Source: Anaerofustis stercorihominis
Lineage (GTDB): Bacteria > Bacillota > Clostridia > Eubacteriales > Anaerofustaceae
NCBI RefSeq assembly: GCF_005844425.1
Contig: NZ_SPHL01000006.1
Span: 21,340-76,649 of the forward strand
Reading direction: 5' to 3'
Length of the DNA: 55,310 nt
Within the stretch, counting starts at the first letter, position 1, and the number at the start of each line of letters is the position of its first letter. The translations under genes and the position numbers were made by a program. The notes under the pieces are model-generated. The model was given only the letters and a program-made list of their open reading frames with translations. It had not been told where the DNA came from and made no database searches. This document shows positions 5,783 through 54,973 of this stretch, in pieces.

Positions 5783-5813
5783 AAACACAAAGATAAATTT
5801 TATCTTTGTGTTT
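5783..5813 (-). terminator. Terminator of the hsd operon
   Basis: Read on the minus strand, AAACACAAAGATAAA pairs with TTTATCTTTGTGTTT and is followed by a T-run. The hairpin overlaps the hsdR stop codon and ends the restriction-modification transcript. Confidence 0.85.
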
Positions 5814-8800
5814 AACCTATACCAAAGAATTTATCAAAAAATTCTTTTAGATTTTCAATAACCTTTTGTTTTTTCTCTTTTCGTTTGTTTCCCTCTTTAG
5901 AAAATCTTGATACAGGAGGCATTATTTTGTCAATGTCCGTTCCTGTTGTTTTTATATATCCGTCTCTAAACGCATTTTGAATAAACTTTTTAGTGTCTTC
6001 TTCTTTTAAGTTTTCTTCTTTAATTATTTTATCAAGTTCTTTTTCTTTTTCTTTCTTTATAAAATTTCTCCACTCTTCGTCTATATTGTCTGTTTCATTG
6101 ACTCTTTCAATAAAGTTTTCAATTAGAACTTTTTTACTTCTTAATTCATAACTTGCATCAACTGCGTTTTGTATATTGATTAGTACTTCTTTGTCTTTGC
6201 AGTGACTTTCATGATATTTTTTCACAAGCATTAATATATAATCAATATTTATATCTACTTGCTTTATAAGTTCTATTTCAAATATAACATCATTGGTTAT
6301 ATCTTCTTTTTCCATATCTTTTTTATTTATCCATTCATCTCTAATATCTTGATATCTTCCGGTGTAGTTTTGTATGTCTCTTATGGATATTATGTCATTT
6401 TCTTCAAATTCATCAAAGGAGTTTAAAAGATTTCTCATTCTAAGTATAGAGCCAAAAAGCATTATAAATTCTTTTTGTCTTTCTTCCCCTGTTATTCTTT
6501 CTTCACTTAACGGGAATTTCTCTTTTAATTTATTTATTAGGTCGATATAACCGGGTTTGTTTTCTCCCTTTTCGTTTGTATAGCCATAAAAATAGTCTTT
6601 GAATTTTCTTATTAATACAATTCCTCCTGCGTCTTTATCGCCAAATAATGCAAGAGCATCATCTACTTCTTTTTGAAGATTTCTAAAACAAACTATATTC
6701 CCAAATGTTTTAATTGAATTTAAAATTCTGTTGGTTCTGCTGAATGCTTGAATCAAGCCATGCATTTTTAAATTTTTATCTACCCATAATGTATTAAGAG
6801 TAGTTGCGTCAAACCCTGTTAAAAACATATTTACTACAATAAGCAAATCAATTTCCTTATTTTTCATTCTAAGGGATACATCTTTATAATAATTTTGGAA
6901 TTTATCGCTTGTTGTATCATAGGAAGTGTTAAACATTTTGTTATAGTCTCTTATTGCATCTTCCAAAAATTCTCTGCTGTTTGTATCTAAAGCGGAAGTA
7001 TCTTCGCTGTTTTCTTCTCCTAAAATTCCATCTGCTTCTTCTTCATTTTGGCTATAACTGTAAATAAGAGCGATTTTTAATTGCTTATTTCTATTTTCAT
7101 TCATTTGTTTTTTAAACTCGCTGTAATAAGCCTTTGCCATTTCAACGCTTGCTACTGCAAAAATGGAATTAAAACCGCTTAATCTTTGTTTTTGTTTTAT
7201 TTCTTCAATCTTCTTATCTTTATTTGTGGCAACTTGTTCAATATTTTTTAGGGAATTAAAAACATAGGTTTTGTTTCCCCTATATGTCTTTTGGTCAAAG
7301 TGGTCTAAGATATATTTTGTAATAAGTGAGATTCTTTCTTTTGCCATATATACATTTTCTCTGTCTATGTCGTATACCTGCTTATCTTTGATATTATCTT
7401 CATAGTCCATTGTCTTGTTGTATTCTACTCTAAAAGGCAGAACATTTCTGTCGTTTATGGCATCTACTATTGTGTATGTATGAAGTAAATCCCCGAATGT
7501 TTGAGCTGTCGTTAAATTGCTGCCACTATTTATTCCTTTCGCATTTACGGCAAAAATAGGAGTTCCCGTAAAACCGAATAAATAATATTTCTTAAAGTTT
7601 TTTACTATTGCTTTGTGCATTTCGCCGAATTGACTTCTATGGCACTCATCAAAAATTAATACAATTTGTTTATCATATATATCATGTTTCTCGTTTTTCT
7701 TTACGAAAGTTGAAAGCTTTTGTATTGTCGTTATTATAATTCTTGCATTATCGTCTTCAAGCTGTTTTGTCAATACGGCAGTTGAAGTGTTGCTGTTTGC
7801 ACATCCTTTTTCAAACCTGTCGTATTCTTTCATTGTCTGATAATCCAAATCTTTACGGTCTACGACAAATATAACTTTATCTATAAAATCTAAATTAGAG
7901 GCTATTCTCGCAGTTTTAAAGGAAGTAAGGGTTTTTCCGCTTCCTGTTGTATGCCAAATATATCCACCTGATGCAATACTTCCGTATTTTTTATAGTTGT
8001 TTGCAATTTGTATTCTGTTTATTATTCTTTCCGTTGCCGTGATTTGATAAGGTCTCATTACCATAAGCATATTTTCTGATGTAAATATGCAGTATTTTGC
8101 AATTATGTTAAGAATTGTATGTTTTGCAAAGAATGTTTTTGCAAAGTCTATTAAATCGGGAATTATTTTATTGTTTGCATCTGCCCAAAAGCTGGTAAAT
8201 TCAAAACTATTGCTGGTTTTATTTTTGTTTGAATTTTTTGTTGTGGCTTCTTTTATGGCATTATATCTGGTGGAGTTGGAATAATATTTTGTATTTACTC
8301 CGTTTGAAATAACAAATATTTGAACATATTCAAAAAGACCGTCTCCCGCAAAGAAAGAATCTCTTTGATAGCGGTTAATTTGATTAAAGGCTTCTTTTAT
8401 GTTTATTCCCCTTCTTTTTAGTTCAATATGAATAAGAGGAAGTCCGTTTACGAGAATTGTAACATCGTATCTGTTATCGTAGTTTGCCCCTTCTTCTTTT
8501 GTCACTTCGTATTGATTTAAAACCTGCAAATGATTGTTATGAATATTGTTTTTATCTAAAAGAGAGATGTTTTTTGATGTGTTGTCGTCTCTTTTTAATA
8601 CTTGGATATAGTCTTCTTGTATCTTCCTTGTCTTTTCAACTATATGTTCATTTTTATTTGCTATGGAATCTTTATAAAATCTTTCCCATTCCATATTGCT
8701 GAATTCATAGTTGTTTAATTTTTCAAGCTGTTTTCTTAAATTAAGTTTAAGTTCATCTTGTGTATGTATATCTACATATTCATAACCTTGAGATATTAGC

Positions 8801-8925
8801 AGATTTATAAATTCTTTTTCAAGTTCTGCTTCGCTTTGATATGCTTTTGCAGTTTGTATTCCCGGTTTATATTCTGTTATTACGGTGTTTTCGGTTGTTG
8901 ATGCAACTATGTTAAAGTAGCTCAT
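5812..8925 (-). CDS. hsdR: Type I restriction enzyme R subunit
   Basis: HsdR is the ATP-driven translocase and nuclease subunit that joins the M2S core to cut unmethylated DNA. The 1037 residues match full-length members. The N-terminal endonuclease domain has the PD-(D/E)xK arrangement (RYDVTILVNG followed by LIHIELKRRG, near residues 155-175). The SF2 helicase core has Walker A WHTTGSGKT (about 320), Walker B IFDECHRSQFGE (about 425) and motif VI-like QAFSRTNRI (about 730). The C-terminal helical part would bind the methylase core. It is the last gene of the operon, 15 bases after hsdS, with a GAGGTG ribosome site. No frameshift is visible, so the nuclease looks intact. Confidence 0.95.
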   Translation of the reverse strand: MSYFNIVASTTENTVITEYKPGIQTAKAYQSEAELEKEFINLLISQGYEYVDIHTQDELKLNLRKQLEKLNNYEFSNMEWERFYKDSIANKNEHIVEKTRKIQEDYIQVLKRDDNTSKNISLLDKNNIHNNHLQVLNQYEVTKEEGANYDNRYDVTILVNGLPLIHIELKRRGINIKEAFNQINRYQRDSFFAGDGLFEYVQIFVISNGVNTKYYSNSTRYNAIKEATTKNSNKNKTSNSFEFTSFWADANNKIIPDLIDFAKTFFAKHTILNIIAKYCIFTSENMLMVMRPYQITATERIINRIQIANNYKKYGSIASGGYIWHTTGSGKTLTSFKTARIASNLDFIDKVIFVVDRKDLDYQTMKEYDRFEKGCANSNTSTAVLTKQLEDDNARIIITTIQKLSTFVKKNEKHDIYDKQIVLIFDECHRSQFGEMHKAIVKNFKKYYLFGFTGTPIFAVNAKGINSGSNLTTAQTFGDLLHTYTIVDAINDRNVLPFRVEYNKTMDYEDNIKDKQVYDIDRENVYMAKERISLITKYILDHFDQKTYRGNKTYVFNSLKNIEQVATNKDKKIEEIKQKQRLSGFNSIFAVASVEMAKAYYSEFKKQMNENRNKQLKIALIYSYSQNEEEADGILGEENSEDTSALDTNSREFLEDAIRDYNKMFNTSYDTTSDKFQNYYKDVSLRMKNKEIDLLIVVNMFLTGFDATTLNTLWVDKNLKMHGLIQAFSRTNRILNSIKTFGNIVCFRNLQKEVDDALALFGDKDAGGIVLIRKFKDYFYGYTNEKGENKPGYIDLINKLKEKFPLSEERITGEERQKEFIMLFGSILRMRNLLNSFDEFEENDIISIRDIQNYTGRYQDIRDEWINKKDMEKEDITNDVIFEIELIKQVDINIDYILMLVKKYHESHCKDKEVLINIQNAVDASYELRSKKVLIENFIERVNETDNIDEEWRNFIKKEKEKELDKIIKEENLKEEDTKKFIQNAFRDGYIKTTGTDIDKIMPPVSRFSKEGNKRKEKKQKVIENLKEFFDKFFGIG

Positions 8926-8940
8926 GTTTTCACCTCTTTT

Positions 8941-10134
8941 TTATTTTGAAAGTTCCTTAAAATCAAGCAGTTTATCTCTATAATATTCATATTGTTTCTG
9001 TCTTTTTTCTATTTCAGCAGGAAGACCATTTGTTATATCATTACAAAGGGTATCAAAACGGTCAATTATGTCTACTATTCTTTGTTGTTTTTCTTTTTCA
9101 GGTATAGGTATATTTAATGTTACAAGACCTTTTTGTGTTAAATGTGGTACGGTTGAACCAGTTTTAACTCTTTCAATAAAATCTTTAAAATATTTTGAAG
9201 TAAAAAAATAATATATATATTTAGGTATTATATTTTTTTCTAGAATTTTAATTCTAAATACACCACTATTTAATGTTGTTAACTTCTTAGGTTCTTTGCT
9301 TAAAAATGCTACTTTTCCAAGAGTACCATCCTTTGTAATTAGTATGTCATTTTTATGAACTTGGATATTAGAATCCATGTCATATCTATTTTTAGTAACA
9401 TACATACAAGTATCAAAATTTATTGTACCATCTGATTGAAAGTCTGTTCCTGTAATTAAATAATAATCTCCTTCTAGTAAATATTCTGCTTTTGTCAATC
9501 TTTGCCAACCAACTCTAGCTTTTACAAGGGCTATATCAGTAATATGCTTTATTTCACAATTTTGTAAGTTATTGAAAATTTGTTGCTTATAATACTCATA
9601 CTGTTTTTTTCTTGCTGTAAGCTCTGCTGTAAGCTCTGCTGTAAGCTCTGCTGTAAGCTCTGTAAAGGTATCCAAAATACGCACGATCTCTTCTTGTACG
9701 GGAAGAGGGGGGATTGGGATTTTGAAGTTTTGTATACTAGATGTATATACATGAGGAACGCCACTTCCTTTTTTTGTATTAAAAATTTTATTTTGCATAT
9801 TTTTTAATACATAAAAAATAAATTTTGTTAAAATAATATTTTTATTTTTTGAAACTACTGTGAATGCATCAGAGACAAAAATAGGAGTTTCCCAAAAAGC
9901 TACATATCCTGCATTAACACCACTTCCTGCTATAGTAATATTTTCACCTGTTCTATTATGTTTATTACAATAATATGCGGGTTTTAAACCTCCTGCAATG
10001 ACAGGGATATTACCTAAGATAAGATTCTTTTTTGTTATCGAATTACCTCTTTTCATTTCAGCAATGTTCTTTAACTCCACATACTCAACCCCATCGGGAC
10101 AGAGTTCATTTATCAGTTGTTCTAATTTGCTCAT
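8941..10134 (-). CDS. hsdS: Type I restriction enzyme specificity subunit, with TAEL repeat spacer
   Basis: HsdS recognises the bipartite DNA target and joins two HsdM. Two target-recognition domains (about 15-140 and 190-335) are each followed by a conserved coiled-coil helix: the central one runs PPLPVQEEIVRILD..RKKQYEYY (143-182) and the C-terminal one ends RQKQYEYYRDKLL. Within the central helix are three full TAEL units plus partial copies (residues 158-174), encoded by four perfect 12-bp direct repeats. In the EcoR124 family this spacer sets the distance between the two half-sites. The start ATG overlaps the RhuM-like stop (ATGA), so translation is probably coupled. The 397-aa length is normal for a two-TRD subunit. 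Confidence 0.95.
   Translation of the reverse strand: MSKLEQLINELCPDGVEYVELKNIAEMKRGNSITKKNLILGNIPVIAGGLKPAYYCNKHNRTGENITIAGSGVNAGYVAFWETPIFVSDAFTVVSKNKNIILTKFIFYVLKNMQNKIFNTKKGSGVPHVYTSSIQNFKIPIPPLPVQEEIVRILDTFTELTAELTAELTAELTARKKQYEYYKQQIFNNLQNCEIKHITDIALVKARVGWQRLTKAEYLLEGDYYLITGTDFQSDGTINFDTCMYVTKNRYDMDSNIQVHKNDILITKDGTLGKVAFLSKEPKKLTTLNSGVFRIKILEKNIIPKYIYYFFTSKYFKDFIERVKTGSTVPHLTQKGLVTLNIPIPEKEKQQRIVDIIDRFDTLCNDITNGLPAEIEKRQKQYEYYRDKLLDFKELSK
9614..9661 (-). repeat. Four perfect 12-bp direct repeats in hsdS (TAEL units)
   Basis: The plus-strand unit GCTGTAAGCTCT occurs four times without mismatch (9614-9625, 9626-9637, 9638-9649, 9650-9661). On the coding strand each unit adds four residues (TAEL) in frame. 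Copy-number change by slippage would keep the gene in frame but lengthen or shorten the helix between the two recognition domains. Confidence 0.97.
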
Positions 10135-11153
10135 ATGTTTTCACCGTTTTCTTTAAGCATTTTGTTTATTTGTTTATCAAAATCAGATTCTATTTTTTGT
10201 GTCTTGTTGAATTGGTCGTATTCCAAATAGGCTTTTTCCTTTGCATCCTTACTTGATATTTTGCCTTTATCTTTTAATATTTCATATCTTCTGAATTCCA
10301 AAAATGCATTTATGCTTTTTGCAAATTCTTCCATTGTAAATGTGTTTTCTCTCTCGATTAGGTCTTCAATATAATCAAAATATCCGCTTACTGCTCTTTC
10401 GAGACTTTTAATTTGTTTCTCATCCAAATAATTTTTTGCAACTGTTACGTCTGATTTTAATATTCTTCCAGCAGGAGCATTTTTCCATGTTGTAAGCCCC
10501 ATATGTTCTTTGTTATGATCTGATTTTGTATATACTATTTCTGCTGCTGTTTGACCTGTTATTGCAAAATGAAATTTATTTTGCACCATAGCATAAAATC
10601 TTTTTGTAATATCTGAATTTTTGTCATAATCAATACTGCATTCTGCAAAAATATCTGTTATTTGCTGCCATATTCTTCTTTCGCTCGCTCTTATAGAACG
10701 AACTCTTTCCAGCAATTCTTTAAAATAATCTTTGCCAAATAAGGTTTTGCCTTGTTTTAGTCTTTCATCATCCATTGCAAAACCTTTAATCATATATTCT
10801 TTTAATATTTTTGTCGCCCAAATTCTAAAATTTGTTGCACGAAGAGAATTTACACGGTAGCCTACTGAAATGATTGCATCAAGATTATAAAAGTTTGTTA
10901 TATGAGTTTGTGTTTTATCTTCAATGGCACCATGCTTAGTGGTTGTTGCAAATTCTGCAACAACCATGGATTGTTTTAATTCTCCTTCTTCAAAAATATT
11001 TTTTAAATGTCGGCTTATTGTTGATTTATCTACGTCAAACAGTTCAGCCATTGCTTTTTGTGTAAGCCAAATTGTTTCATCTTTTATAAAAGCATTTACT
11101 TTTATATTTTCTTCTTCTATTTTATACATTAAAAATTCAAATTGATTTTTCAT
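10131..11153 (-). CDS. RhuM-family protein within the type I R-M operon
   Basis: The protein matches the virulence RhuM family: an N-terminal winged/KilA-type part (IWLTQKAMAELFDVDKSTIS, a likely helix-turn-helix), then the family signature FYNLDAIISVGYRVNS and RATNFRIWAT, and a long helical C-terminus. RhuM was named from a Salmonella pathogenicity island; its biochemical role is not established, but such genes commonly sit inside type I R-M operons. I choose ATG 11153 (340 aa) because it follows GAGGG at good spacing; a TTG four codons earlier would overlap hsdM. It follows hsdM by one base and overlaps hsdS by four. Function here is unknown, possibly regulatory. Confidence 0.85.
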   Translation of the reverse strand: MKNQFEFLMYKIEEENIKVNAFIKDETIWLTQKAMAELFDVDKSTISRHLKNIFEEGELKQSMVVAEFATTTKHGAIEDKTQTHITNFYNLDAIISVGYRVNSLRATNFRIWATKILKEYMIKGFAMDDERLKQGKTLFGKDYFKELLERVRSIRASERRIWQQITDIFAECSIDYDKNSDITKRFYAMVQNKFHFAITGQTAAEIVYTKSDHNKEHMGLTTWKNAPAGRILKSDVTVAKNYLDEKQIKSLERAVSGYFDYIEDLIERENTFTMEEFAKSINAFLEFRRYEILKDKGKISSKDAKEKAYLEYDQFNKTQKIESDFDKQINKMLKENGENI

Positions 11154-11154
11154 G

Positions 11155-12717
11155 TTATCCCTCAATCTCCTTGATTATTTTGTCGATTTCGGCTCTTAAA
11201 ATTTCTTCTTTTTCTACTATCTCTTTTATTTCTTTGTTTAATACATCAATATCTATTACTTCCCTTGTATCTTGTGGTTCAACATATGTATTTACAGATA
11301 AGTTGTAATCTTCTTCTTTTATCTTTTCATATTCCACAAGAGAAGAAAAATGTTCTTCTTCTTTTCTTTCTTTAAATACTGATAGTATTTTATCCATGTT
11401 TTCTTTTGTGAGTTTATTGTTGTTTGTTACCTTTATGCATTCTTTGCTCGCATCAATAAACAAAGTCTTGTTATCGGTTTTGTTCTTTTTCATTACCATA
11501 ATGCACGTTGCTATTGATGTTCCAAAGAATAGGTTTTCCGGAAGCTGGATAATAGTATCTATAAAGTTATTATCAATAAGATATTTTCTTATTTTTTTCT
11601 CTGCTCCCCCTCTGTACATTATCCCCGGGAAGCATACTATGGCAGCTGTTCCGTTTGTGGCAAGCCAGCTTAATGAATGCATAATAAAAGCAAGGTCTGC
11701 TTTTCCTTTAGGTGCCAAAACTCCGGCAGGGGAAAATCTTGGGTCGTTTATTAAGGTTGCGTTGCTGTCTCCTTCCCATTTTATTGAATAAGGAGGATTT
11801 GATACAATAAGCTCAAAAGGTTCATCATCCCAGTGCTTTGGTTTTGTTAAAGTATCTTCACAGGCTATATCGAATTTGTCATAGTCTATATCGTGAAGAA
11901 ACATATTTATACGGCATAAGTTATAGGTTGTTATATTTATTTCCTGACCGTAAAAACCGTTTCTTACATTTTCTTTTCCAAGTACTTTAACGGATTTTAA
12001 AAGAAGCGAACCTGAACCGCAGGCAGGGTCGTATACTTTGTTTACTTCTTTTTTCCCTACTGTTCCAAGAAGCGTAAGAAGAGTCGAAACATCTGCCGGT
12101 GTGAAGAACTCGCCTCCCGATTTTCCTGCATTTGATGCATACATTGTCATAAGATATTCATAAGCATCACCAAAGGTATCTATATCGTGATTTTGAACAT
12201 TATCAAGTTTCATGTTGTTTATGCCGTCTAAAAGTTTAACGAGTCTTTCGTTTCTCTTTTTAACCGTTGAACCAAGCTTGTTGCTGTTTACGTCAAAATC
12301 ATCAAACAGTCCCGCAAAAGAATTTTCTGAATCGGTTCCTTTTGCCGAATTTTCAATATTTCTAAACACTTTTTCTAATGTTTCGTTTAAATTTTCATCG
12401 CTTTTTGCCTTATTTTGCACATTGCAGAAAAGTTCGCTTGGAAGAATAAAAAAGCCTTTTGAATTTACTATATCTTCTCTTATTGTTTCTGCTTGTTCAT
12501 CTTCTAATTTGGCATAGTCAAATTCAAGGTCACCGGCGTCTCTTTCTCCTTTGTTTATATATTCTGATATATTTTCTGATATATATCTATAAAACATTGT
12601 GCCAAGGACATAATTTTTAAAGTCCCAGCCGTCAACTGCTCCTCTTAATTCATCGGCTATAGCCCATATAGCTCTATGAAGCTCATCTCTTTCCATTTCT
12701 TTCTTATTGTCTGCCAT
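11155..12717 (-). CDS. hsdM: Type I restriction enzyme M subunit (N6-adenine methyltransferase)
   Basis: HsdM transfers methyl from S-adenosylmethionine to adenine N6 in the target chosen by HsdS, protecting host DNA. The 520-aa protein has the HsdM N-terminal helical domain (WAIADELRGAVDGWDFKNYV), the SAM-binding motif DPACGSGSLLLK (about 230-241) and the catalytic NPPY motif (SNPPYSIKW, about 309). C-terminal residues are rich in Glu and Lys and helical, as needed to bind HsdS. It is the first gene of the operon, with a promoter upstream and AAAGGA before its ATG. No disruption is seen. Confidence 0.96.
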   Translation of the reverse strand: MADNKKEMERDELHRAIWAIADELRGAVDGWDFKNYVLGTMFYRYISENISEYINKGERDAGDLEFDYAKLEDEQAETIREDIVNSKGFFILPSELFCNVQNKAKSDENLNETLEKVFRNIENSAKGTDSENSFAGLFDDFDVNSNKLGSTVKKRNERLVKLLDGINNMKLDNVQNHDIDTFGDAYEYLMTMYASNAGKSGGEFFTPADVSTLLTLLGTVGKKEVNKVYDPACGSGSLLLKSVKVLGKENVRNGFYGQEINITTYNLCRINMFLHDIDYDKFDIACEDTLTKPKHWDDEPFELIVSNPPYSIKWEGDSNATLINDPRFSPAGVLAPKGKADLAFIMHSLSWLATNGTAAIVCFPGIMYRGGAEKKIRKYLIDNNFIDTIIQLPENLFFGTSIATCIMVMKKNKTDNKTLFIDASKECIKVTNNNKLTKENMDKILSVFKERKEEEHFSSLVEYEKIKEEDYNLSVNTYVEPQDTREVIDIDVLNKEIKEIVEKEEILRAEIDKIIKEIEG

Positions 12718-20094: not shown

Positions 20095-22257
20095 ATGATA
20101 CAATTAAAAGTACCTCATAAATTTTTTGTGCTATTTATGTCATTGGCATTGGTAATAGGGTTATTTATTTGTCCTATGCCGGTAATGGCTTTAAGTGAAG
20201 GAAATGTAATTGATATGTCAGATACAAATCCTGCTGCATCAGGAGATGGTTGGACATATGCAGATGGAGTTTATACAATATCCAATGGCGCAAATGTAAC
20301 AGTTGTTGGTGATAATGGAGGAAGTGGTCGTAGGATTTTAATCGAAGCCGGTGCTACTGCAACAGTTACATTGTCTGGAACCAGTATTACTCAAACAAAT
20401 TCAAATGCTGCACCTATAGGATTAGATAATAATACTAATCTTACATTGATACTTGCAGAAGGTACAGAAAATACTTTATCAGGAGCGAGTACACAAGCTT
20501 CAGGTATTCAAATGGGGCTTGCTGGTCAAGCAACGGTTACATCGACTTTAACAATTGAAGGTACAGGTACATTATATGCTACAGGTGGTAATCGTTGGCC
20601 TGGAATTGGAGGTCGTGCCGGAGGAAAAAGAACTATCAATATAATGAGTGGAACAATTATTGCTCAAGGTGCTAATCAAGGTGCTGGAATTGGAAATGGT
20701 AGAAGTACACCTGCAAATTCAAACTTCGTTAATATATATGGTGGAGATATTACTGCTATAGGAGGTAATAATGCTGCCGGAATTGGTGGAGGAGATAACG
20801 TTGGAAAAGATGACAATGCAGGCGTAATTACTGTATATGGCGGTTTGATTAAAGCCCAAGGTGGAAATAATGGAGCCGGCATTGGAAGTGGGTATTATAA
20901 TTATTCTGGTGGAACTCTAAAACTTGATGGAAATGGTATTATATTTGCTTCTAGCGTAAGTGATGGTGGATCATATAATAAAACATCTGGGGTTTTATTT
21001 CAAGGAAATTCCGGAACTGTTTATGGCAATGTTATTTTAGAAAATGACTTTGAAGTTGAGAGTGGAAAACAGCTTACTGTTCCTGCAAATACTTCGTTGA
21101 CAATTGCTAAGGGAATTACAATGACCGGTAATGGTAATATTCAAAATAACGGAAGCATAAAGGTTAATCTTGGCGGTACTTATAACGGAGAAAAACCTGC
21201 CGGACAGGCTCTTTTATATCAAATTGTATCAAATATAGATACGGATATATGTAGTTTAAGTCCTCAAGTACCTGATTATATACAACAAGATAATAATCTT
21301 GCTTTTTCTCTTAATATTAATGATGGATTCTCAAAAACAGATAATTTTGCAGTAAAAGCAAATGGAGAAGCTCTTATTGAGCAAGATAATCAATATACTG
21401 TTTCTGTAACGAAACCTATAGAAATTACTGTTGAAGGTGTGGAAGATATTACATATCCTGTTATTAATGGGGTAACTAATGGAGAAACTTATTACACTAC
21501 ACAAAGTGTTAGTGTTTTTGATGCAAATCTAAAATCTGTTACATTAAATAATGCCTCTGTTCAAGAAAGTTTTGTCTTAGATGGAAATACAGATACAACA
21601 TATAATATTGTTGCTACAGATAAAGCCGGTAACATCACAACATGTACGGTTACTATGAAGTCAATTGCAAGCATTGCTGATCCAATTAAAGATATTACAG
21701 TTGATAATGTAACTTCTGATGATAAAACAACTATTGAAGAAATAAAAACAATTATAGAAAATATAAATACTGACAATGCTACTGAAGAAGAAAAAGCAGA
21801 ATTAAATGATATATTAAATAAATGTGAAACTTTGATTGAGAAAATTGAAACTGTTACAGATTATAATATTATATCAGGAAATAACAGTCAGTGGACTAAA
21901 GGTGATAGTAGTTCAATCAGTATTACAGTTAATGGTGATGTTGAAAAATTTGTAGGAATTGAAATTGATGGAAAAGCTGTTGATGAAAAAAATTATACAG
22001 TAAAATCTGGAAGTACTATCATTACATTAAAACCGGAATATCTAAATACACTATCAGTTGGAAAGCATACTTTAACTGTAATTTATACAGATGGTGAAGT
22101 AACTGGTGAATTTGAAATATTAGATAAAAATAAAATAATTACACCAGAAACGGGAGATGATAACAATATTGGATTATGGACTATACTATCTATTATTGCC
22201 GGTTGTGGATTAGTTGGAGCTGTGAGTTTCAAAAGTAAAAAGAAATATATAAAATAA
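20095..22257 (+). CDS. Secreted, sortase-anchored surface protein with Gly-rich beta-solenoid repeats
   Basis: A cell-wall protein of 720 aa. An N-terminal signal peptide (about 1-32, MIQLKVPHKF..VMA) precedes a repetitive region (about 165-275) of four ~32-residue units carrying GAGIGNG, AAGIGGG and GAGIGSG, spaced like turns of a right-handed beta-helix. Next come beta-rich segments; near residues 445-520 an Ig-like module (YPVINGVTNGETYYTTQ), then a helical linker, and an X2-like module (ISGNNSQWTKGDSSSISITV, about 600-675). It ends with TPETG at 683-687, a hydrophobic segment and a basic tail, a (N/S/T)PxTG sorting signal. No sortase is in the window. An adhesin or polysaccharide-binding role is inferred; the ligand is unknown. 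Confidence 0.88.
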   Translation: MIQLKVPHKFFVLFMSLALVIGLFICPMPVMALSEGNVIDMSDTNPAASGDGWTYADGVYTISNGANVTVVGDNGGSGRRILIEAGATATVTLSGTSITQTNSNAAPIGLDNNTNLTLILAEGTENTLSGASTQASGIQMGLAGQATVTSTLTIEGTGTLYATGGNRWPGIGGRAGGKRTINIMSGTIIAQGANQGAGIGNGRSTPANSNFVNIYGGDITAIGGNNAAGIGGGDNVGKDDNAGVITVYGGLIKAQGGNNGAGIGSGYYNYSGGTLKLDGNGIIFASSVSDGGSYNKTSGVLFQGNSGTVYGNVILENDFEVESGKQLTVPANTSLTIAKGITMTGNGNIQNNGSIKVNLGGTYNGEKPAGQALLYQIVSNIDTDICSLSPQVPDYIQQDNNLAFSLNINDGFSKTDNFAVKANGEALIEQDNQYTVSVTKPIEITVEGVEDITYPVINGVTNGETYYTTQSVSVFDANLKSVTLNNASVQESFVLDGNTDTTYNIVATDKAGNITTCTVTMKSIASIADPIKDITVDNVTSDDKTTIEEIKTIIENINTDNATEEEKAELNDILNKCETLIEKIETVTDYNIISGNNSQWTKGDSSSISITVNGDVEKFVGIEIDGKAVDEKNYTVKSGSTIITLKPEYLNTLSVGKHTLTVIYTDGEVTGEFEILDKNKIITPETGDDNNIGLWTILSIIAGCGLVGAVSFKSKKKYIK

Positions 22258-22503: not shown

Positions 22504-24096
22504 TTGAACGATACAATGGCGAAAAATATAAAAACCAGACTTTCAAACAAAAAAGGAAGCGAACAAATAAAATTTGTATTAGAAGGGGTTCTTATTGGGT
22601 TAGTTGCAGGGATAAGCGCTATAATTTATAGATTTCTTTTAACAAAAGCCGAAGCTTTTTTGTTTGGTACCATAAAAACAATAAATGGTAATTTTTTGTA
22701 TATGTTCTTTTGGGGAGTATTTATAATACTACTTTCTTTAATTATTGGTAAGTTAATTAAGTTTGAACCAATGGCGAACGGCAGCGGTATTCCTCAAGTA
22801 AGTGGAGAAATGAAAGGATATTTATCCCAAAATCCAATTAAGGTATTAATTGCAAAAATAATAGGAGGAACTCTTTGTATTGTATCGGGATTTTCTCTTG
22901 GAAGAGAAGGTCCTTCCATACAGCTTGGAGCCATGTCTGCAAAACTTCTTGCAAGAATTCAAAAAAAAGGGAAAACTAAAGAAAAAGTTTATCTTTCATG
23001 TGGTGCAGGCGCAGGTCTTGCTGCTGCATTTAATGCTCCTTTGGCAGGGGCTATGTTTACAATGGAAGAAATACATAAAAATTTTGACGGAAGAATTATT
23101 GTAAGTGTAATGACAGCATCTATTACGGCAGATTTTCTTGCAAAAAGTATCTTCGGGCTTTCTCCTGTATTTCACTACACAAATCTTCAAACAATCCCAT
23201 TAAAATATTTTGGTCTTATAATTATTCTAGGGGTTATACTTGGAGTATGCGGTAGTATATATAATAAGGTTATGGTCTATTCTCAGCATATATATGCTAA
23301 GCTAAATAAAATAAAAACCGAATATAAAATACTAATTCCTACTGTGTTTGCATTTATTCTTGCATTTACTCTTCCAGATGTACTTGCAGGGGGAAATCAA
23401 ATGGTAAAAATACTTGAAAATAATCAGTATATTTTATCAACACTTATTACTTTGCTTATTGTAAAATTTATTTTTTCTGCCATTTGTTTTGGCTCTGGAG
23501 CTCCCGGAGGGATTTTCTTTCCTTTGCTTGTTTTAGGTTCTTTTATAGGTGCTATTTTTGCTGTAGTTTGCACAAATCTAATTGGTATTTCTGCGGATTT
23601 TACGCAAAAGTTTATAATTCTTGCAATGGCGGGATTTTTCTGTGCAACCGTAAGAGCACCTTTTACTGGTATAATATTAATAGCGGAAATGACAGGCTCT
23701 CTTTCTCATATGATATCAATAAGCCTTGTCTGCATAATATCTTATGTGGTTGCTTATATATTTAAAAGTGAGCCTATATATGAAAGCTTACTTGATAATA
23801 TATTAAAAAAACAAAAAATAGAACTTAAAGAGCCAAGCAATGAAACAATGTTAGTAACATATAATATAGCTTTTGAAAGCGAAGTTGATGGGAGAAGACT
23901 TGATGAAATTGAGTGGCCTAAAAATTGTCTTCTTGTTGCAATAGAAAGAGGAAATAAAGAGTTTATTCCAAGAGGGTATAATACTATTAAGGCAGGGGAT
24001 TTTATAACAGTGCTTATAAATGAAAACGAAATGAATTATATGAATGAAATGTTAACGCAGATGTGTTGTGAAAAAGAGAAAAAGTATATTGATTAA
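22504..24096 (+). CDS. CLC-family chloride/proton antiporter with C-terminal TrkA-C domain
   Basis: A membrane antiporter that exchanges chloride for protons. Signature selectivity-filter motifs are present: GSGIPQ (about 97-102), GREGP with the gating glutamate (about 137-141), the inner proton glutamate in FTMEE, and GSGAPGG in the second half. About ten transmembrane helices span residues 20-430. Residues ~445-520 form a TrkA-C-like ligand domain (FESEVDGRRLDEIEWP). It starts with TTG 22504, nine bases after AGAGG; the first ATG (22516) would leave an over-long gap. GREGP (not GREGT) argues against the fluoride CLC-F group. It is 16 bases ahead of the MORN gene and probably co-transcribed. 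Confidence 0.93.
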   Translation: MNDTMAKNIKTRLSNKKGSEQIKFVLEGVLIGLVAGISAIIYRFLLTKAEAFLFGTIKTINGNFLYMFFWGVFIILLSLIIGKLIKFEPMANGSGIPQVSGEMKGYLSQNPIKVLIAKIIGGTLCIVSGFSLGREGPSIQLGAMSAKLLARIQKKGKTKEKVYLSCGAGAGLAAAFNAPLAGAMFTMEEIHKNFDGRIIVSVMTASITADFLAKSIFGLSPVFHYTNLQTIPLKYFGLIIILGVILGVCGSIYNKVMVYSQHIYAKLNKIKTEYKILIPTVFAFILAFTLPDVLAGGNQMVKILENNQYILSTLITLLIVKFIFSAICFGSGAPGGIFFPLLVLGSFIGAIFAVVCTNLIGISADFTQKFIILAMAGFFCATVRAPFTGIILIAEMTGSLSHMISISLVCIISYVVAYIFKSEPIYESLLDNILKKQKIELKEPSNETMLVTYNIAFESEVDGRRLDEIEWPKNCLLVAIERGNKEFIPRGYNTIKAGDFITVLINENEMNYMNEMLTQMCCEKEKKYID

Positions 24097-24112
24097 TGTT
24101 AAGAGGTAATAT

Positions 24113-25189
24113 ATGGAAACTCACTGTCTTTTATCCAGAATGAATATAGGAACATTAAAAAAATTAAGAGGAAAATTGCTTTTTGTTAATGTTTATGTAA
24201 GTGACAATGAATATAAATGGACGAATGGAGAAATAGAAGAAAAAAGCCAAAAATTATTTGATATATTTGATTATTTAAAGAAATGTATAAATGAAGAAAA
24301 TGTATTTTTTGAATATTACGTTTCATCTTATTATTTAAATATATCATATCCTTTTGAAAGAACAAGCTGTGAAAAGTGGTTAAAAGATTTTGCAAATGGA
24401 TTTGATTGCCTTAATTTGAAAAATGTGCATGATAAGATGTATTTAAAATACGACGTGGACCAGGTGGCATTTTTATTTATTACTAAGAGACCATCTCTAT
24501 GTTATGCCATAAGTGCAAAAGAGTCTTTTTATGATTTTTGTGAGTTTGCAGTATTATATGGTGAAAATTATAATTCTGTAATTCATGAAATTCTACATTT
24601 GTTTGGAGCTGCTGATTTATATTTTCCTAAAGAAATTTCAGATGTTGCAAAAGAAATGTTTCCCAAAAGTATAATGTTTAATTCAACTTATAATAAAATA
24701 GATGATTTTACAAAGTATGTAGTGGGTATTCATGAAAAACCTTCTTCTTTGGCAAAAACCTTTATAGATAGAACAAAGGATATAAACTGTGAATATATTG
24801 AAAATTCTATAAAAGGGCAGTGGCAAGACGGGTTTAGAAGAGTTACATATGCAGGAGGCATGGTATACGAAGGTAATTTTAAAAATGGTATGCGTGAAGG
24901 AGAGGGGAAAGTATTTTATACAAATGGAGCAGTATATGAAGGAGAATTTAAGAATAATAATATAGAAGGTTTTGGTAAAATGCATTTTGCGAACGGTGCA
25001 TTGTATGAGGGGGAATTTAAAAATAATAAAAGAAGCGGAATTGGCAAACTTATATATCCAAATAAGGTAATATATGAAGGAGAGTTTAAGGATAATGAAT
25101 ATAATGGTCAGGGTAAACTCACTTATCCAAGCGGTAAAACATACGAAGGGGAATTTAAAAACGGTAAAATAGTAAAAAATAAAAGATAA
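24113..25189 (+). CDS. Metzincin-like domain fused to MORN repeats, 358 aa
   Basis: Two parts. Residues 1-230 contain HEILHLFGAAD (158-168), the HExxHxxGxxD zinc motif of metzincin-type peptidases with an Asp as third ligand, after ENYNSV; Met189 (SIMFN), downstream, could be the Met-turn. Residues 252-358 are four full and one partial 23-residue MORN repeat, YEGEFKNN..G.GK...NG, which in other proteins bind lipid or form beta-sheet rods. No signal peptide or membrane segment is visible, so it should be cytosolic. It follows the CLC gene by 16 bases with an AGAGG site. The combination is not one I know. Peptidase activity is inferred from the motif only; a non-catalytic role remains possible. 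Confidence 0.8.
   Translation: METHCLLSRMNIGTLKKLRGKLLFVNVYVSDNEYKWTNGEIEEKSQKLFDIFDYLKKCINEENVFFEYYVSSYYLNISYPFERTSCEKWLKDFANGFDCLNLKNVHDKMYLKYDVDQVAFLFITKRPSLCYAISAKESFYDFCEFAVLYGENYNSVIHEILHLFGAADLYFPKEISDVAKEMFPKSIMFNSTYNKIDDFTKYVVGIHEKPSSLAKTFIDRTKDINCEYIENSIKGQWQDGFRRVTYAGGMVYEGNFKNGMREGEGKVFYTNGAVYEGEFKNNNIEGFGKMHFANGALYEGEFKNNKRSGIGKLIYPNKVIYEGEFKDNEYNGQGKLTYPSGKTYEGEFKNGKIVKNKR
24866..25186 (+). repeat. MORN repeat array (five units, 69 bp each; last partial)
   Basis: Protein-level repeats at residues 252-274, 275-297, 298-320, 321-343 and 344-358. All begin YEGEF or YEGNF and are 23 residues apart, with GxGK in the middle. The DNA copies have diverged, so the array is not a slippage-prone perfect repeat. 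Confidence 0.9.
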
Positions 25190-25210
25190 GGTTTTGCCTT
25201 ATCTTTTTTG
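25181..25210 (+). terminator. Terminator after the MORN gene
   Basis: AAAAGATAAGG and CCTTATCTTTT pair around a short loop and run into a T-tract. The hairpin overlaps the stop codon and ends the CLC-MORN unit. Confidence 0.88.
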
Positions 25211-54079: not shown

Positions 54080-54973
54080 ATGTCCGAAATAAAATTATTT
54101 AAAATAAACAATGAAGTTGAACGATTGGTTCCTACACAAGTTTTACTTGAAAAAGAACTTCAGAATTTAATTGAAAATAATATGGAACAGTTTTTTGGTG
54201 TTCGTTTTTTGTATAGCGAATATAGTATACCAAGTGGGAGAATGGATAGTATTGGGATTGATGAAAATAACTGTCCGGTAATTTTTGAATATAAAAGAAG
54301 CAGTAACGAAAATGTTATTAATCAAGGATTGTTTTATTTAGATTGGCTGCTTGACCATAAAGCGAATTTTAAACTTCTTGTTATGGAGAAATTAGGAAGT
54401 GATGCTGCAGAATTAATAGACTGGTCTGCTCCTTGTGTAATTTGTGTTGCAAATGATTTTACAAAATATGATGTACATGCAGTTAATCAAATGCAAAGAA
54501 ATATAAAGTTAGTAAAATATAAAAAATATAATGATGAACTTATTTTATTTGAACACTTAAATGCTCCGATTATAAAAAATAGTGTAGATAGTACAGTAAA
54601 CGAAGAAAAGAGAAATTCATCACAAAAAACTCATTTAGAAAAATTAAATAATTTATCAAAAGAATTACATATTTTATATGATTCAATTTGTGATTATATT
54701 GAATCTTTAGGGGACGATATTGTTTCTAATCAATTAAAACTTTATTTAGCATATAAAAAAGTTCAAAATATGGCATGTATTGAGGTTTATAATAAACAAA
54801 TTATAATATATTTAAAACTTAGCCCCGATACAGTTATATTAGAAAATGGATTTACAAGAGATATGAGAAACGTTGGACATTATGGAACGGGAGATTTGCA
54901 AATTACCATAAAAAACAATAATGATTTTGAGAAAGCAAAACCTTTAATCGAAAGAGCATATAATGAAATGTAG
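54080..54973 (+). CDS. DUF5655-type protein with PD-(D/E)XK-like nuclease fold, 297 aa
   Basis: Residues ~15-130 resemble the DUF91/NucS-like nuclease fold: MEQFFGVRFLYSEYSI, GRMDSIGIDENN, then VIFEYKRS (the D..ExK arrangement). Residues ~180-297 match the DUF5655 domain (LHILYDSICDYIESLGDDIV, then FTRDMRNVGHYGTGDLQ). AGGAG site and a terminator downstream, so it is a separate unit. Family members are found in defence-like and accessory regions, but no partner is seen here. Nuclease activity is inferred from the motif. Confidence 0.78.
   Translation: MSEIKLFKINNEVERLVPTQVLLEKELQNLIENNMEQFFGVRFLYSEYSIPSGRMDSIGIDENNCPVIFEYKRSSNENVINQGLFYLDWLLDHKANFKLLVMEKLGSDAAELIDWSAPCVICVANDFTKYDVHAVNQMQRNIKLVKYKKYNDELILFEHLNAPIIKNSVDSTVNEEKRNSSQKTHLEKLNNLSKELHILYDSICDYIESLGDDIVSNQLKLYLAYKKVQNMACIEVYNKQIIIYLKLSPDTVILENGFTRDMRNVGHYGTGDLQITIKNNNDFEKAKPLIERAYNEM

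Follow-up and report, generated by a model that had tools for sequence, protein, structure and literature searches.

Metzincins are mostly exported. MORN repeats are familiar chiefly from proteins of the eukaryotic cytoskeleton and of membrane contacts, and MORN arrays are often labelled lipid binders. For TbMORN1, membrane binding could not be demonstrated, and the MORN1 structures are dimers joined via their C-termini (PMC7725318). In bacteria, MORN arrays are also known as accessories to other domains (PMC8612252). A search of the open-access literature found no title or abstract describing a fusion of MORN repeats with a metzincin, metallopeptidase or metalloprotease.

Here we describe a protein of this architecture, encoded in a 55,310-nucleotide stretch of Anaerofustis stercorihominis DNA (the window). 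With the metzincins (M12B ADAM/reprolysin, M6 InhA, pappalysins, fragilysin and OgpA), it has in common an HExxHxxGxxD/H motif, a Met-turn and the modelled fold. It differs from them in that identity is mostly <16%, aspartate is the predicted third ligand, the catalytic half lacks a match to any curated family, and the protein has a MORN array and no signal peptide. Likeness to the M6 family (TIGR03296) is visible as weak matches in 29 of 77 scanned members of its homologous family and as InhA2 structures among its structural neighbours (Z ~10), but the window protein itself is unmatched. It resembles MORN proteins (PF02493; MORN1, MORN4 and junctophilin) in its 23-residue repeats and hairpin array, with structural matches of Z up to 18.4, whereas its array sits C-terminal to a peptidase-type domain. 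The MORN-heliorhodopsin fusions of haloalkaliphilic Firmicutes likewise carry a bacterial MORN array as an accessory on a functional domain, although the partner there is a rhodopsin and the array is N-terminal (PMC8612252).

Architecture of the metzincin-MORN protein

The fusion gene (24113..25189, plus strand) encodes 358 amino acids from an ATG start. It has its own ribosome-binding site, AGAGG, at 24102..24106 on the plus strand, and an in-frame TAA at 24107-24109, just 5' of the ATG, which excludes an upstream extension of the N-terminus. Residues 1-236 (24113..24820) make up a catalytic-type metzincin domain, as supported by the model and its structural neighbours, and contain the zinc-site motif HEILHLFGAAD (residues 158-168; 24584..24616) and a predicted Met-turn, PKSIMFN (residues 184-190; 24662..24682). 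The remainder is a MORN array (approximately residues 240-356; 24830..25180) of five YEGxF units starting at residues 252, 275, 298, 321 and 344, a spacing of 23 residues. It was assigned from Pfam PF02493 (score 96.3 bits, cut-off 22.5), predicted hairpins and matches to MORN structures. The initial annotation of this DNA, made from sequence alone, had read an HExxHxxGxxD motif followed by five MORN repeats, and both sequence and Pfam bear this out.

MORN was the only Pfam match in the protein, leaving the catalytic half unassigned, and NCBIfam returned no match. That annotation had also called the domain pair unrecognised, which holds for the catalytic half, for which Pfam and NCBIfam have no model, and fails for the pair as a whole, which recurs in four more fusions. 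PADLOC gave no match and PHROGs matched only the MORN part, so there is no sign of a defence role.

Predicted fold and conservation of the catalytic half

Structure prediction of the HExxH site, proposed earlier as a check, gave a metzincin fold. AlphaFold models, built from an input alignment gathered with an HExxHxxG-type search pattern, had a mean pLDDT of 93.6 for the whole protein, and a pLDDT of 93.0 with a pTM of 0.90 for residues 1-236 alone. In the model the HExxH helix spans residues 153-163 and the methionine lies in a loop past the next helix, while the C-terminal half forms a beta-hairpin array that MORN structures match. Because MORN matches filled the whole-protein Foldseek results, the catalytic half was predicted and searched separately. 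All 50 of the neighbours listed for it by VIA-align are metzincins (Z 9.0-10.3 over ~153-201 residues), including snake-venom/ADAM proteases, OgpA, Amuc_1438, InhA2, ulilysin, mirolysin, fragilysin, ADAMTS and PAPP-A, and the same metzincin groups head the Foldseek list.

Genome contigs scanned with the single window protein yielded nothing; a search with a four-sequence alignment then returned 138 related places, of which 80 were retained. These define a family of at least 80 homologues without annotation, spread over several phyla and marked by HExxHxxGxxDxY, an invariant Met-turn and TAYxxGW. Most come from Clostridia (Bacillota), with others in Bacteroidota, Planctomycetota, Spirochaetota, Myxococcota, Pseudomonadota and Omnitrophota. 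Several weak matches from the single-protein search of the class (L004, L005, L006 and L008) proved on inspection not to be homologues, and neither tblastn in plasmids and phages nor a scan of viral contigs found any. The gene is sporadic, with a member in 5 of 391 genomes of the class and in 2 of 61 relatives, a pattern expected from gain and loss, or from transfer.

The H, E, H and G of the motif belonged to the search pattern, and their invariance is therefore partly a product of selection. D168, Y170, M188 and G205 all lie outside that pattern and are nonetheless invariant in 67/67 aligned homologues, which argues that the motif is no chance match. Across all 84 family proteins the aspartate of the motif is present and a methionine follows the first histidine by 26-54 residues, which by sequence is the position of the metzincin Met-turn. 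Profile matches are fainter: Reprolysin_5 (Pfam) weakly matches 26 of the 77 members scanned and not the window protein, and the family profile, run against PDB sequences, found only weak matches, one of them a metzincin (4on1). The protein combines the HExxHxxGxxH/D motif, Met-turn and predicted fold by which the metzincin clan is defined, and family conservation, Met-turn and fold all support the metzincin-like reading made initially. No Pfam or NCBIfam model matches the wider family (L038-L117) strongly, and it merits its own profile.

Recurrence of the fusion in Clostridia

Among the 77 family members scanned, 5 have a MORN match. Besides the window protein these are four peptidase-MORN fusions, all from Clostridia and all with the same domain order: L040 from Lachnospiraceae, L041 and L044 from the sheep rectum metagenome-assembled genome RGIG6305, and L045 from goat colon. 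A maximum-likelihood tree gathers the five fusions, together with two members without MORN (L042 and L046), in a single supported clade of seven (95/81). The distribution of MORN on this tree requires two changes, which one gain plus one loss could supply. The MORN-bearing clade probably arose from a metzincin family, mostly exported by appearance, that lacks Pfam or NCBIfam curation.

RGIG6305 carries its two peptidase-MORN genes as paralogues, and the one at L044 is followed by a gene for a 206-residue, secreted-looking protein without a Pfam match. MORN arrays are also attached to another domain in the window's taxonomic family, where one protein of 774 residues in genome G006 joins a Ser/Thr kinase domain to a C-terminal array (L032, 3391-5712).

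Genomic context and the adjacent CLC gene

The fusion gene follows a gene at 22504..24096 on the plus strand, which encodes a CLC Cl-/H+ antiporter of 530 amino acids from a TTG start, with the Pfam domains Voltage_CLC and TrkA_C. Aligned with structure 1kpl, this protein keeps GSGIP, GREGP with the external gating glutamate, the paired internal glutamates (EE) and the C-terminal tyrosine, and by these residues it is an ordinary antiporter bearing an RCK-type C-terminal domain. As first noted, the two open reading frames (22504-24096 and 24113-25189) are 16 bases apart and share one terminator, a bidirectional terminator-like hairpin at 25181..25207. Given this spacing, the common strand and the single terminator after the second gene, co-transcription of the pair is plausible in this one genome. 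Directly upstream of the CLC gene, 20095-22257 encodes a surface-type protein of 720 residues that is secreted and contains beta-helix repeats and a CBM_X2 domain. Elsewhere in the window are a set of minus-strand open reading frames resembling type I restriction-modification by arrangement only (5812-12717) and a gene for a protein with NucS C-terminal and DUF5655 domains (54080-54973).

The arrangement is not shared by relatives. Two congeneric genomes have a CLC orthologue (69-70% identity), followed in both by an NptA-like phosphate transporter gene, named by sequence inspection, and neither genome contains the peptidase or a MORN match. In a sample of the order comprising 23 CLC-bearing genomes, the window's own among them, a MORN or HExxHxxG gene lay beside CLC at 0 of the 22 related loci (one, L140, read by inspection) within flanks of ~1.5 kb per side, less at contig ends. 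Three CLC loci flagged by a loose MORN regular expression had their matches within the CLC protein itself. Conversely, no CLC gene occurred in the flanks of the fetched peptidase-family homologue loci or near the four other peptidase-MORN fusions, with L041 offering only short flanks on a 3 kb contig. Conserved linkage, the mark by which a CLC-peptidase system would be recognised, is thus absent from the loci surveyed. MORN proteins without CLC do occur in relatives, an outcome that the initial annotation had itself named as counting against linkage. Together, the congeners, the 22 loci and the fusions without CLC leave its proposed CLC-peptidase system unsupported; the comparison of gene neighbourhoods indicates that the adjacency is a chance arrangement local to the window's genome, with no conserved CLC system behind it.

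Cellular location, activity and role of the MORN array

A crude hydropathy scan found a strongly hydrophobic N-terminal segment, in some cases lipoprotein-like, in 69 of 84 family proteins; most of the other 15 appear to have short signals or starts that were mis-called or truncated. By the same scan neither the window protein nor L040, its nearest fused relative, has a signal peptide, and both start at the domain. With no signal peptide and a start directly at the domain, the window protein is probably cytosolic. The membrane localisation suggested initially is not established: neither a signal peptide nor an obvious transmembrane segment is present, and experiments have cast doubt on lipid binding by MORN repeats (PMC7725318). 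A metallopeptidase held at the membrane and working with the antiporter, for example in acid or envelope stress, would gain from the plausible co-transcription of the pair and from the fact that a cytosolic MORN protein could sit on the membrane's inner face, but the unlinked CLC genes of the congeners and of the 22 related loci in the order, and the absence of CLC genes from the flanks of the other fusions and homologues, make it very improbable. Slightly less remote, and still quite unlikely, is export by a non-classical route, with glycoproteins of the envelope or the host as targets; most of the family may act in this way. The N-terminal hydrophobic or lipoprotein segments of most homologues and the mucin-type O-glycopeptidases OgpA and Amuc_1438 among the structural neighbours speak for export, whereas the window protein has no known secretion mark in addition to the features already missing, and L040 is alike in having no signal peptide.

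The window protein is divergent, with an end branch of 1.23 and at most 30% identity to others in the tree. At three positions it carries a residue other than the family consensus, with I157 and K201 where A is usual and I206 where W is usual, so it may have lost activity. A pseudo-enzyme that keeps the metzincin fold, serves as a MORN scaffold and, in its cytosolic form, has lost the original exported role would account for the long branch, the off-consensus residues and the absent signal peptide. The predicted zinc ligands, catalytic glutamate and Met-turn are all intact, however, the reading frame is uninterrupted and the fold is confidently predicted, and we regard this alternative as unlikely, though the most serious of the three. 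The reading we favour, and hold to be probable, is a cytosolic metzincin-type zinc peptidase that is positioned or oligomerised via its MORN array and is next to CLC by chance.

We infer zinc binding, proteolysis, cytosolic location and the function of the array from sequence and model. In the favoured reading of a cytosolic zinc peptidase, zinc would be held by H158 and H162 with D168, E159 would serve as general base, and M188 would form the Met-turn beneath the zinc. The five-repeat MORN beta-hairpin rod would place the enzyme, most likely by protein-protein contact rather than by lipid, and the candidate contacts are a partner, a substrate or tail-to-tail dimerisation. A more specific proposal, offered tentatively, is that this metzincin works in the cytosol with a MORN rod that self-assembles or binds a partner, and that it descends from a large, uncatalogued family of exported metzincins.

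Pairing with CLC can be dropped from the interpretation of this locus. What remains is a widespread metzincin family unmodelled in Pfam and NCBIfam, many of whose members come from ruminant and other gut Clostridia, and a peptidase-MORN architecture that recurs within it. Metzincin members without a signal peptide are unusual, and if the proposed reading is true, this one would be a bacterial protease delivered to defined intracellular targets by a MORN rod.
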